37,355 bases of DNA from Candidatus Rifleibacteriota bacterium. Its GTDB lineage: Bacteria; Muiribacteriota; Ozemobacteria; Ozemobacterales; Ozemobacteraceae. This document shows, one piece after another, positions 27,530 through 31,847 of this stretch. Every line of letters starts with the position of its first letter. Positions within the stretch are counted from its first letter, which is position 1. Made by a program: the position numbers and the translations under genes. The notes beneath the pieces are model-generated. The model had not been told where the DNA came from and made no database searches. It worked only from the letters and a program-made list of their open reading frames with translations. The stretch covers positions 1 to 37,355 of the forward strand of contig CAJOQX010000236.1 of assembly GCA_905236865.1 (NCBI GenBank), written 5' to 3'.

Positions 27530-29770
27530 TTACTGAAGGAGGCTTAGAACATTCTGACTTAATGCGTTTGCTTGTGCAAGCATAGCAGTGCCAGCCTGTT
27601 GCATTACCTGAGCTGCTGAAAACTCAGTCATTTCTAAAGCCATATCAACATCTCTTATACGAGATTCTGAATCGGTCATATTAGTTCTGGCATTTTCCAA
27701 GTTATTGCTTGTATATTCTAATCGATTCATGTAAGCACCTAATTTAGAACGTTCACCAGATACAGTAGACAAAGCTTTTTCTATTCTTCTTAATGACATC
27801 TGAGAACTTTCTTTTGTTGTCATATCTAGCTTATCGATACCTAATGCTTTTGTAGACATATCGCAAATTGTTATAGGCATTTTCTGCCCTTCATTTGCTC
27901 CTATGTGATACTTAGGACTAGAATCTTTTATATGGACTCTAAAATTTGTATCTCCATCACCTATTGCAGTACAATCTTTGTAACCAAATATATCCATACT
28001 GGTAATTGCAGTATTGACAGTGCTTACTAAAGATTCTACAGTCAACAAACTTTGATACAAACGAACATCTTCGCTATTATAGTCGCCAAGATAAGTAGAA
28101 GTAATAGCCAAAGAACCATTTACTTCATCAAGTCTTGCAGCAACTGTTGCAGCTTCGATATTTCGATTCCAAGTAGTAAGCCATTCATTTATTTCAACTA
28201 AATCAGGACCTGCTGATATTGTAACACCAACAGAAACGTCAATAGTAGCATTCTTACCATCGGTTATTCTGATAGTTAAACCAGCACTAACCTTGCTAGA
28301 ATCTGTAAGAAGACTAAAACCCTTTATACCTTGTTGAGAATTCTTTTGACCGTCTATGAATCCTATATAGTCACCTGCAGGAATACCTATAGTATTACTA
28401 CCAGCATTTACTTTAATACCTGTCGGAGCTCTGCCATCTTCTGGTCTGTAATTTAAGCGAACCTGACCATTTACAACTTCTGCTGCCATTCCACTATTTC
28501 CACCAGTTACAGCAGCAATTTGAGCATTAATTTCTGCAACTATACCATTCATTGAATATCTACTATCTTTAGCAAAACTTACAGAAACTGTTACTATAGA
28601 AGTAACAGAAACACCAGTTTGAAATTCAAAAGATAGTGTTTCAGGAGCAGAAAATTGAAGCCCTTCGACAATTCCACCATTACCTGCTACTTGTGCTGGA
28701 GTAGAATCAAATACTACATCTATACCAGCTAATATTCCAGAAACTCTGTCTGCACTTGTAGTAGCACTAATAATTGCATTAGGATCGTCAGACAAAACAT
28801 TTGCTATAACAACATTGTTTACAGATTCTCTAGTAACGGATAGACCTAAAGCATCCATAACAATCTGTGGCCCTATAATTGAGAAATTACCTGCTTCGCC
28901 AACTTTACCAGAAACTAATTCTAAATAACCGCCCATACCAGAAACACCTGTTTGAACAGTATTTACCATGCTAACATGTGAATTTCTCAATCCAAGAGCA
29001 TTTGTATTTGCCAAAGCATCCTGCAATGTTGAAGCTAACTCATTAAGAGTCATCTTACCATTTATTGTGAATTCAAAGTTTTCGGAATTACCAGTAGCAT
29101 AAAGTGTTTGAGGGGTAGTCAAAGAGAATACGCCAGCTTCATCATAGAATTCGGCTATATCTTCAAGCCTTGTATTACCCTGAGCTAACTCGCCAGTATT
29201 TTTATTTTTAAATATTTGAGTAGTCTGCATTTGGGATATACCACCCTGAACTACTGTCATACTTAAAGCATAATCGCCAGCGACTACACCAGAACCAACG
29301 GCAACACCTTTTATATATTTACTACTTGAAGATACAAGAGCTGTCTGACTTCCATCAAGTAACTTTTTAGTATTATATTCAGTAGAATTTGCAATACTAT
29401 CTATAGCTTCCTTTAGGCTGTTGACCTCCTTCTGTATTTCAAGTCTGTCATTGGTTGTCAAAGTGTCATTTGAACTCTGAACAGCTAATTCGCGTAATCT
29501 CTGAAGAATACTTTCAGTTTCATTCAAACCGCCTTCAGCAGTCTGTAACATTGACATACCATCTTGAGCATTCAATTTGGCACGATTCAAACCTTTAATC
29601 TGACTTCTCATTTTTTCGCTGATAGTCAGCCCTGCTGCATCATCTGCAGCATGATTGATGCGAAGTCCCGAACTAATTTTTTGGATAGAACCTTCCAGAC
29701 GAGAGCTAGATCTAACAAGACTTGAATGACTAGAAATTGCAGTTACATTATGATTTACACGTAACGACAT
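27530..29770 (-). CDS. Flagellin (large)
   Basis: The filament subunit, exported by the flagellar type III system. The conserved N-terminal D0/D1 region (1 to about 140) has 'SSGLRINHAADDAAGLTISE' and 'DGMSMLQTAEGGLNETESIL'. The conserved C-terminal D1/D0 region (about 655-746) has 'NLENARTNMTDSESRIRDVD' and ends 'ANALSQNVLSLLQ'. Between them is a long variable region of about 510 residues (D2/D3), Ser/Thr-rich and a likely site of O-glycosylation, in keeping with the pseF gene. At 746 residues it is much longer than the roughly 270-500 usual for flagellins. The leader has an ideal GGAGGA Shine-Dalgarno 8 bases before the ATG and a GGA-loop hairpin suggestive of CsrA control. It stands alone, with its own promoter and terminator. 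Confidence 0.97.
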   Translation of the reverse strand: MSLRVNHNVTAISSHSSLVRSSSRLEGSIQKISSGLRINHAADDAAGLTISEKMRSQIKGLNRAKLNAQDGMSMLQTAEGGLNETESILQRLRELAVQSSNDTLTTNDRLEIQKEVNSLKEAIDSIANSTEYNTKKLLDGSQTALVSSSSKYIKGVAVGSGVVAGDYALSMTVVQGGISQMQTTQIFKNKNTGELAQGNTRLEDIAEFYDEAGVFSLTTPQTLYATGNSENFEFTINGKMTLNELASTLQDALANTNALGLRNSHVSMVNTVQTGVSGMGGYLELVSGKVGEAGNFSIIGPQIVMDALGLSVTRESVNNVVIANVLSDDPNAIISATTSADRVSGILAGIDVVFDSTPAQVAGNGGIVEGLQFSAPETLSFEFQTGVSVTSIVTVSVSFAKDSRYSMNGIVAEINAQIAAVTGGNSGMAAEVVNGQVRLNYRPEDGRAPTGIKVNAGSNTIGIPAGDYIGFIDGQKNSQQGIKGFSLLTDSSKVSAGLTIRITDGKNATIDVSVGVTISAGPDLVEINEWLTTWNRNIEAATVAARLDEVNGSLAITSTYLGDYNSEDVRLYQSLLTVESLVSTVNTAITSMDIFGYKDCTAIGDGDTNFRVHIKDSSPKYHIGANEGQKMPITICDMSTKALGIDKLDMTTKESSQMSLRRIEKALSTVSGERSKLGAYMNRLEYTSNNLENARTNMTDSESRIRDVDMALEMTEFSAAQVMQQAGTAMLAQANALSQNVLSLLQ

Positions 29771-29778
29771 AGTTTGAT

Positions 29779-29816
29779 TCCTCCGTGAACCAGTCCATTA
29801 TTTCGCATCCTTGCGA
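29779..29816 (-). promoter_or_regulatory. Flagellin mRNA leader: GGA-loop hairpin plus GGA-rich SD (putative CsrA sites)
   Basis: The mRNA reads UCGCA-AGGA-UGCGA (29803-29816), a 5-base-pair hairpin with GGA in the loop, close to the CsrA consensus ACARGGAUGU. It is followed by AUGGAC and then by the Shine-Dalgarno ACGGAGGAA (SD core 29779-29784). A hairpin site plus a site overlapping the Shine-Dalgarno is the layout of the CsrA-repressed hag leader in Bacillus subtilis. CsrA itself is not in this window. Confidence 0.6.
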
Positions 29817-29824
29817 TACTAAAA

Positions 29825-29852
29825 AAGATACACAAAATTAAATTTTCGTCAA
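29825..29852 (-). promoter_or_regulatory. Flagellin promoter (sigma-70 type)
   Basis: On the - strand TTGACG (29847-29852) and TATCTT (29825-29830) have a 16-base spacer. The start site near 29818-29820 would place the GGA hairpin almost at the 5' end of the mRNA. No sigma-28 (TAAA-N15-GCCGATAA) element is visible. Confidence 0.6.
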
Positions 29853-29932
29853 GTATTTTTTCAAAAAAAATTTCAAAATTTTTTTGAATCAGACAAAAAT
29901 CTAATTTTATGTATCTCTGTTAAATATATATG

Positions 29933-29955
29933 CTAATTTCTGAAATAGAAATTAG
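29933..29955 (-). other. AT-rich hairpin after the duplicate leader
   Basis: CTAATTTCT and AGAAATTAG form a perfect 9-base-pair stem with a 5-base loop. It lies between the duplicate leader and the flagellin promoter and could end the short transcript, but the following sequence has no strong U-run. Confidence 0.35.
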
Positions 29956-29975
29956 ATTTATTACTTTATTGGGAG

Positions 29976-30002
29976 TTAAGTTTTTATTATGCTAATTAGC
30001 AT
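29976..30002 (-). CDS. Eight-residue reading frame after the duplicate leader
   Basis: ATG at 30002 with an ideal GGAGGA (30009-30014) six bases upstream, encoding MLISIIKT and then TAA. It sits exactly where a flagellin start would be in the duplicated leader. It is either a leader peptide, a relic of a deleted flagellin, or not functional. Confidence 0.3.
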   Translation of the reverse strand: MLISIIKT

Positions 30003-30008
30003 TAAGCT

Positions 30009-30048
30009 TCCTCCATGAACAGACTAAAATATTTACGCTTCCCTGCGT
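30009..30048 (-). promoter_or_regulatory. Second copy of the flagellin leader (GGA hairpin plus SD)
   Basis: The mRNA has ACGC-AGGGAA-GCGU (30035-30048), then UUUUAGUCUGUUCAUGGAGG. It aligns with the flagellin leader ('CUGGUUCACGGAGGAA' against 'CUGUUCAUGGAGGAA') and keeps both GGA sites, but no flagellin follows. Confidence 0.6.
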
Positions 30049-30059
30049 TCTATATTAAT

Positions 30060-30087
30060 AATATAAATAAAAAGAAACATAAGTCAA
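30060..30087 (-). promoter_or_regulatory. Promoter of the duplicate leader
   Basis: On the - strand TTGACT (30082-30087) and TATATT (30060-30065) have a 16-base spacer, the same spacing as the flagellin promoter. It begins just past the terminator of the HEAT-repeat gene. Confidence 0.6.
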
Positions 30088-30095
30088 GAGGGAAT

Positions 30096-30130
30096 AAAAA
30101 AGTTTAACAATTATATTGTTAAACTTTTTT
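30096..30130 (-). terminator. Rho-independent terminator of the HEAT-repeat gene
   Basis: AAAAAAGTTTAACAA (30096-30110) pairs perfectly with its reverse complement at 30116-30130 around a 5-base loop. On the - strand the stem ends in a run of T, and it directly follows the stop at 30135. It closes the rpiB/deaminase/murA/HEAT group. Confidence 0.85.
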
Positions 30131-30134
30131 ATTT

Positions 30135-31847
30135 TTATTCTTTTATATTTTGTGCAAAACGGTCCAATATACTTTCATAAATCTCTGATTTTAAACGAGT
30201 TCTATTTGCTTCATTAAGTAAAGGTATCAAAGCTCTTATATCGCCTCGAATGCTCAAAGCTTCAAGAACATTTCTATAAACCATATCTTCTTTATCGTGC
30301 AACATTCTAATTAGAATTGGAATTCCAGCAGGGTCATCAATCTGCCCAAGTGCAAATACAGCGGAAGCCCTAACCCATCGACTTCTGTCGTGAGACATTT
30401 TTTCCAATTCTTCAAAAACTTCAGAATGACCACTTTTCCAAAGAGCAATAGCGGCATTAACTCTAACACGGTCATTTCTATCTTTAAGCATTGGGAAACA
30501 AGCTTCTGGCAAACCTTCCCAATTTTGAGCAGAAAGAGCTTCTATTGTGTTTGCTCTTACTCTAGCATCTTTATTCTTTAAATTTGGAATTAATATTTTT
30601 ACAACATTGTCGTCTTTTATTCTTCCAATAGCAGAAATAGCCGTTGCCATCACCCAAATATCAATATTTGTGGATTTTATAACATTTTTCAACGATTCAA
30701 TTAGTTCTGGTGTTTTTATATTAACAGCCGCTTCAATAGCATTGATTTTAATCCAACGTTCTTTTGCATAAAGAGCTTCTTTCACCAATGAAGAAGCTTT
30801 AGAGCTTCCGATACGCCCTAGAACGAGAAGAAGCTGTTCTTTTATAAGCAAAGGCATCCTTTCGTAATCAATCATAATCCTGTCTACTATTTTTTCCCCA
30901 ATATTGCCTAATGCCTCTATGCTAGCTTTTTGCAAATCTTCATCTGAAGATTGTAAAAGTTTGAACAAATCATCAAAAAGAAAAGAACTTTTTTCTTCAG
31001 CAGCTTTTTTTACAAGAACAATTCGAATATTTTTTTCTTTTTCAGTAATAATCAATTGACGAATTATTTTAATTCTTTCATCAGCAGCGAAAAGAACCAA
31101 ACCATCCAAGGCCGCTTTTCTAATATTTGCCCTATTGTCATTTAACAAAAGTTGATAAATCACTCTATCTTCAATTAGTGGATGAGAATTCAAAGCATCT
31201 ACAATTATCTGTCTAACTTCTGCATTAGAAGACATTACTAGTCTTTTTATTTGATTGTAAGCGCCCTCGTCTTTTAATCTTGTCAAAGCTAGATTAGCCA
31301 TTAACGAAATATTCCAAATAGGATTATCAGAAAGCATTTTTAGAGATGTGTGACTTTCTGATGAAGGAAACCTTATAAAATAGCTTATTGCTGGAACGAG
31401 AAGTTCTGAATCCCTTGTCTGTCTAAGAATTTCATTCATTAAAGAACGAACTTTATTATCGTTATAAGATAATAGAAGTTCTACAATCTTTTTTCTTAAA
31501 GGAACAGGCTGGTCTGCACCACAAGCCTTTATAGGTATATCTTCCACAGACGACAAATCAATCTTTCTTAAACTTTCATAAGCTTCTTTAGCAATCTTTT
31601 CATTTGAATTACTTATGAAATCAATCAAATACTTAACAGATGCTGGATTTGTAATCTGTCCTAAAGATTTTATAGTAGCCAAAAGAACTTCTTTATCAGG
31701 AGATGAAAGCAAGTCATGTAACTCTTCAGAATGATTTTTTATTTTTAAAATTCCTAGAGCGGAAATAGACATTAATTTAACTTCTCTATCAGAACTATTA
31801 AGACCTTCTATAAGCTTTTCAAATCGTTTTTTTGAAGTTTCTGGCAT
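30135..31847 (-). CDS. HEAT-repeat protein
   Basis: The 570-residue product is built almost wholly of HEAT/armadillo-type helical repeats of about 31 residues, for example 'SISALGILKIKNHSEELHDL', 'ASIEALGNIGE' and 'VRANTIEALSAQNWEG'. There are roughly 15 or more, ending with PBS-lyase-like HEAT units ('SAVFALGQIDDPAGIPILIR'). There is no signal peptide, so it is a cytosolic scaffold. It starts 19 bases after murA and is probably co-transcribed with it. The partner is unknown. A strong terminator follows. Confidence 0.93.
   Translation of the reverse strand: MPETSKKRFEKLIEGLNSSDREVKLMSISALGILKIKNHSEELHDLLSSPDKEVLLATIKSLGQITNPASVKYLIDFISNSNEKIAKEAYESLRKIDLSSVEDIPIKACGADQPVPLRKKIVELLLSYNDNKVRSLMNEILRQTRDSELLVPAISYFIRFPSSESHTSLKMLSDNPIWNISLMANLALTRLKDEGAYNQIKRLVMSSNAEVRQIIVDALNSHPLIEDRVIYQLLLNDNRANIRKAALDGLVLFAADERIKIIRQLIITEKEKNIRIVLVKKAAEEKSSFLFDDLFKLLQSSDEDLQKASIEALGNIGEKIVDRIMIDYERMPLLIKEQLLLVLGRIGSSKASSLVKEALYAKERWIKINAIEAAVNIKTPELIESLKNVIKSTNIDIWVMATAISAIGRIKDDNVVKILIPNLKNKDARVRANTIEALSAQNWEGLPEACFPMLKDRNDRVRVNAAIALWKSGHSEVFEELEKMSHDRSRWVRASAVFALGQIDDPAGIPILIRMLHDKEDMVYRNVLEALSIRGDIRALIPLLNEANRTRLKSEIYESILDRFAQNIKE

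Follow-up and report, generated by a model that had tools for sequence, protein, structure and literature searches.

Why does a flagellin leader with a promoter of its own stand ahead of flaB with no flagellin behind it? The stretch of DNA that raises this question, 37,355 nt long and referred to here as the window, comes from the fragmented, 79%-complete assembly (3.56 Mb, contigs from metagenome assemblies) of an uncultured, rumen-type bacterium whose relatives are Candidatus Riflebacteria of the family Ozemobacteraceae. The earlier note on this DNA had described, about 230 bases upstream of the real leader, a homologous one with promoter, GGA hairpin and ATG. As explanations it had offered the deletion of a tandem flagellin gene, a decoy RNA that titrates CsrA, or a leader peptide unit. 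In our reading of the minus strand, the orphan leader unit is present exactly as first described.

Anatomy of the orphan unit

We aligned 36 flagellin leaders of Ozemobacteraceae relatives, leaving the orphan out. Both hairpins of the family leader carry GGA in the loop in this alignment, and hairpin 2, often GATTC-AYGGAG-GAATC, contains the Shine-Dalgarno sequence. All six pairs of helix 1 vary on both sides while 90% of cells pair, a covariation that none of 500 shuffles reaches on any of five measures and that slid controls do not reach either. The covariance model built from these leaders, R1, matches the window at two places only. One is the flaB leader, scoring 52.5 bits (E 1.3e-9), and the other is the orphan, with 35.1 bits (E 7e-6), which bears out the homology first noticed; no Rfam family matches anywhere in the window. 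All 14 invariant columns are kept in the orphan leader; in its hairpin 1, a T-A pair of the flaB leader has become A-T, and pairing is maintained. The pattern GTTCAYGGAGGAA occurs only twice in the whole 3.56-Mb assembly. Model score and genome-wide pattern count together rule out a chance match.

The boxes of the orphan promoter, TTGACT at 30087-30082 and TATATT at 30065-30060, are separated by 16 nt. Hairpin 1 (ACGC-AGGGAA-GCGT at 30048-30035) holds GGA within its loop. The leader contains TGTTCATGGAGGAA, reaching to 30008, and the ATG lies at 30002-30000. Hairpin 2 is reduced to TTC-ATGGAG-GAA around the Shine-Dalgarno sequence: GGA and Shine-Dalgarno are kept, the two outer pairs are broken, and three pairs are left of five. 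The unit thus has two GGA sites, one of them within a firm hairpin. Its reading frame ends after eight residues, as first read, and the encoded peptide bears no likeness to any flagellin start. The spacer beyond it has no match in the related genomes, and the real flagellin leader follows 232 nt downstream of the orphan leader.

Features of the orphan unit and its neighbours in the window
Feature	Position	Strand	Basis or remark
HEAT-repeat protein, upstream neighbour	30135..31847	-	
Terminator-like perfect 19-bp inverted repeat	30093..30133	.	immediately 3' of the HEAT-repeat gene
Orphan-unit promoter, predicted sigma-70-type	30060..30087	-	TTGACT-16-TATATT, 10/12
Orphan flagellin-type leader, two hairpins and ATG	30000..30051	-	covariance model, folding
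Eight-codon frame MLISIIKT	29976..30002	-	TAA stop 29978-29976
Spacer with 9-bp hairpin CTAATTTCT/AGAAATTAG	29923..29975	-	z -4.5
Giant hairpin	29820..29922	-	folding, covariation; U6 tract at 29826-29821
flaB promoter, inside the giant hairpin	29825..29852	-	TTGACG-16-TATCTT
flaB leader with two GGA hairpins	29770..29819	-	covariance model
flaB flagellin, 746 aa	27530..29770	-	PF00669 and PF00700; orthologue of the second gene in the flaA-flaB tandem

Two hairpins flank the unit. On the upstream side, the terminator-like inverted repeat would insulate it from transcription upstream. On the downstream side, the giant hairpin has 27 pairs in its outer stem (-35 kcal/mol, z -8.1). Three related genomes have a counterpart between flaA and flaB, over the flaB promoter and with a U-tract end, and four compensatory pairs are seen among the window and these three genomes. 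We considered a promoter inversion switch, given that the flaB promoter lies in an inverted repeat, but a terminator fits better because the U-tract is conserved and the covariation is of the kind expected for RNA. The giant hairpin is thus probably the terminator of the orphan RNA, overlapping the flaB promoter. The superposition of an upstream gene's probable terminator on the next gene's promoter, conserved with compensatory changes in three relatives, is an observation in its own right. Since the orphan sits between these two hairpins, its predicted product is a separate RNA of some 230 nt with two GGA sites, and the orphan would form an isolated unit of about 233 nt (30053-29821) if the promoter is used.

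Probable descent from a lost flaA

Comparison with related genomes, as the earlier note had suggested, provides a potential source for the unit. Three congeners (G001-G003) carry flaA and then flaB in tandem, each with a TTGACG-16 promoter and a leader of the orphan type, and G001 has one further flagellin upstream of the tandem; the three are so closely related that they amount to hardly more than a single comparison. The flaA promoter in these genomes, TTGACG-16-TATTAT, has the same design as the orphan promoter. In the protein tree, the window flagellin groups with flaB (95/99), and the flaA proteins make up a clade of their own (100/100). The split between the two precedes the branching of the window genome, so flaA is older than the window lineage. 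A flaA search of the 79%-complete assembly found no orthologue: the best match to the query is the window gene itself (60%), followed by the flagellin linked to csrA and by more remote flagellins. An important caveat is that, at this completeness, flaA could lie elsewhere, unassembled.

Because relatives retain the tandem, the tree places flaA before this lineage, no flaA was found in the assembly, and the hairpin between the two units is shared, we favour the reading in which the orphan is a relic, the promoter, leader and terminator left behind by flaA loss, with a probability of roughly 0.6. The suggestion that a tandem flagellin gene was deleted here is thereby supported.

By eye, an alignment of the sequence after the ATG suggests a flagellin remnant, but over the 100 nt that follow the orphan ATG shuffled sequences do as well (p 0.62 local, 0.34 anchored), and no flagellin codon was found there by this test. 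This speaks against the relic reading, since a loss of flaA would have to have begun right at the start codon or be old. So does the identity of only about 60% between the orphan leader and the relatives' flaA leaders, whereas the flaB leader is nearly unchanged. The orphan and flaB leaders are about 62% identical, and the orphan resembles other flagellin leaders of the family at least as well, which rules out the orphan as a duplicate of the flaB leader. Collapse of near-identical tandem flagellins during assembly was also set aside, since it would be expected to fuse the copies at homologous points, with a single leader remaining instead of two that differ. Flagellin decay is seen elsewhere in the family, where one leader (L188, G011:C64:2967-3015) is followed by a 65-aa stump with several stops and another (L206:2097-2147, G008:C160) by a 55-aa mini-flagellin.

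Orthologues of the HEAT-repeat gene in related genomes are not adjacent to flagellins, which points to a rearrangement breakpoint between this gene and the orphan unit, and, since the upstream gene differs from that of the relatives, synteny supports the flaA position on the flaB side only. These orthologues also lack any such element, and we discarded the idea that the orphan belongs to the HEAT gene neighbourhood.

Leaders without flagellins in Ozemobacteraceae

We searched 24 genomes of the family and flagellar loci from them, counting the matches listed per genome. At least 89 high-scoring leaders were classified, of which 68 precede a flagellin-type frame (the G011 stump included) and 21 of the 89 listed lack a full flagellin frame downstream. 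Eleven of these 21 lie 137-248 nt upstream of flaG. Eight, the window copy included, stand alone, with a flagellin leader 150-400 nt further downstream, and occur in six genomes of four genera (G000, G010, G011 with two, G018, G022, and G023 with two), and none of the eight shows a flagellin remnant. The last two precede a repeat protein (G008) and the 55-aa mini-flagellin.

Promoters of a sigma-28-like type (TAAN-N14-16-GCCGATAA, up to two mismatches) stand ahead of 15 of 20 flagellin-less leaders, the mini-flagellin being left out, compared to 4 of 68 flagellin leaders (Fisher p ~1e-9, for related sequences that are not independent). The window unit is an exception in this group, with a flagellin-like promoter of the sigma-70 type. 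Taken together, the leaders without a flagellin retain their two hairpins with covariation: 30 cells differ on both sides of a pair, with 0/500 shuffles reaching this, in an alignment that also contains the leader of the G011 stump. A syntenic pair of units, from G011 and G018, lies in the gap that separates the same two neighbouring flagellins, about 200 nt past the upstream stop; their leader scores 22.5 versus -5.1 +/- 2.8 for shuffled sequence, while similarity on either side stays at or close to background.

Because flagellin-less leaders persist elsewhere, active maintenance is a serious rival to the relic reading: the leader-only unit would be selected as a CsrA-titrating sRNA that frees flagellin and flaG translation, one of an Ozemobacteraceae set. 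The retained G011/G018 pair, the recurrence of such leaders and the predicted promoter and probable terminator of the window unit make a CsrA decoy plausible, and the covariation of the group in both hairpins, the eight stand-alone units free of flagellin remnants and the flaG leader of the window genome, described below, point the same way. However, hairpin 2 of the window unit retains only three of five pairs, its two sites compare with many in CsrB/RsmZ, and its promoter departs from the sigma-28-like one of most flagellin-less leaders. The usual CsrA antagonist, FliW, is also present: CsrA (PF02599, L116:6549-6821) and FliW (PF02623) are encoded beside another flagellin of the same genome, in the order fliW-csrA-flagellin. 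Moreover, discovery by a conservation-based covariance model favours conserved copies, and hence conserved units. We prefer a relic over a maintained decoy because hairpin 2 erodes in the window copy; a role of this copy as a CsrA decoy is possible from its sequence, but we consider selection for that role rather unlikely.

The eleven flaG leaders (L203:2605-2653, G000:C55:12104-12152; L226, L224, L195, L201, L205, L207, L209, L212, L216 and L219) mostly lie behind a sigma-28-like promoter and have no conserved frame after them. In the one from the window genome, the Shine-Dalgarno sequence is altered from GGAGG to GGAAG and the GGA hairpin is retained. Some tens of bases past three of these leaders (L226, L224, L195), ATTCCTC and TCCTTGA are complementary to the leader segment TCAAGGAGGAAT, which suggests an alternative pairing that might mask the CsrA site.

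Two other kinds of gene carry similar leaders. A two-hairpin leader with a sigma-28-like promoter precedes the gene for an uncharacterised protein (MSILQSNNYGNKN..., some 447 aa) at three loci (L234:795-838, G001:C348; L235; L236), and its second hairpin, AACTC-AAGGAG-GAGTT, covaries. The repeat protein behind the G008 leader counted above has 451 aa with YDPGTxHRLKQSGLLGHP-type repeats and lies directly upstream of a flagellin (L202:2166-3572, G008:C26).

The remaining proposal of the earlier note was a leader peptide unit. Translation of such a peptide, or of a small protein, from the orphan ATG has an intact Shine-Dalgarno sequence and start codon in its favour. It nevertheless appears highly improbable: the frame has eight codons here and 16-67 after the other stand-alone leaders, the start codon folds into the hairpin ATGCTAATTAGCAT, and the frames behind flagellin-less leaders have neither Pfam similarity nor clear similarity to one another. 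These frames are largely dissimilar, and a small conserved protein after the stand-alone leaders was rejected; that MLISIIKT is a functional peptide is likewise doubtful.

A possible route to a regulatory RNA

For the relic, we propose the following model. The flaA coding sequence would have been lost, and the promoter, the CsrA-binding leader and the terminator would survive as a self-contained transcription unit. The sigma-A-type promoter (30087-30060) would start an RNA at about 30053, which the giant hairpin and its U-tract would end just ahead of the flaB start, at a length of about 230 nt. This RNA would offer two GGA motifs, one in the firm hairpin and one at the Shine-Dalgarno sequence in the weakened hairpin. 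It would bind CsrA to some extent and might thereby relieve flaB, flaG and further genes with such leaders from repression, so that the unit today would be a relic whose decoy function is weak at best.

Action in cis would require read-through from the orphan promoter into a longer flaB mRNA, on which the two leaders jointly bind CsrA. Both leaders lie on one strand, at the distance given above, and orphan units and flaG leaders elsewhere also precede a same-strand gene. Yet the giant hairpin and U-tract between the units should block most read-through and flaB has a promoter of its own, which leaves this arrangement improbable.

More broadly, Ozemobacteraceae may use free-standing flagellin CsrA leaders as regulatory RNAs, some driven by sigma-28 (located 5' of flaG or between flagellins in tandem) and the window's driven by sigma-A and derived from a lost flagellin, which would jointly buffer CsrA in step with flagellar assembly. 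We regard this family-wide scheme as speculative and unlikely as a whole. The route itself can be stated concretely: a CsrA-controlled gene that loses its coding sequence would keep a promoter, a leader bound by the protein and a terminator, which amount to a ready-made decoy. Should the units turn out to be relics, flagellin turnover would have produced them as a matter of course. We found no Csr sRNAs described for Ozemobacteraceae in the literature, and the recurrent flagellin-less leaders make CsrA decoys outside Gammaproteobacteria a testable question.

Known systems resemble parts of this picture. In the Hag-FliW-CsrA system of Bacillus subtilis, the flagellin leader contains CsrA sites (PMC6529632). 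The fliW-csrA-flagellin gene order of the window genome is like this system, whereas its multiple flagellin genes are not. We know of no orphan leader described for the B. subtilis system. The CsrA-titrating sRNAs CsrB/CsrC and RsmX/Y/Z carry multiple GGA stem-loops (PMC4894983); the orphan RNA would likewise sequester CsrA via GGA hairpins, but has two sites. Escherichia coli has sigma-28-dependent, UTR-derived flagellar sRNAs (PMC10578931). The present units would similarly be short RNAs from flagellar untranslated regions, and most of the relatives' flagellin-less leaders have sigma-28-like promoters, in contrast to the sigma-70-type promoter of the window unit. The sigma-28-dependent RNAs of E. 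coli are known as base-pairing regulators.

A close parallel is the flaA leader of Campylobacter jejuni, which is 45 nt long. It folds into a pair of stem-loops that both display ANGGA in the loop, and the downstream one covers the ribosome-binding site, a structure supported by compensatory changes (Dugar et al., 2016, PMC4894983). There the flaA mRNA leader is both a target and an antagonist of CsrA, which it titrates; FliW is the main antagonist and flaG another CsrA target (PMC4894983). The Ozemobacteraceae leaders share the two-hairpin design. Unlike the C. jejuni leader, which is part of a flagellin mRNA, the window leader is a putative separate short unit without a flagellin, from an unrelated phylum. 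The earlier note had thought a CsrA sponge derived from a flagellin leader to be new; titration as such is known from C. jejuni (PMC4894983), and it is the leader-only version that would be new.
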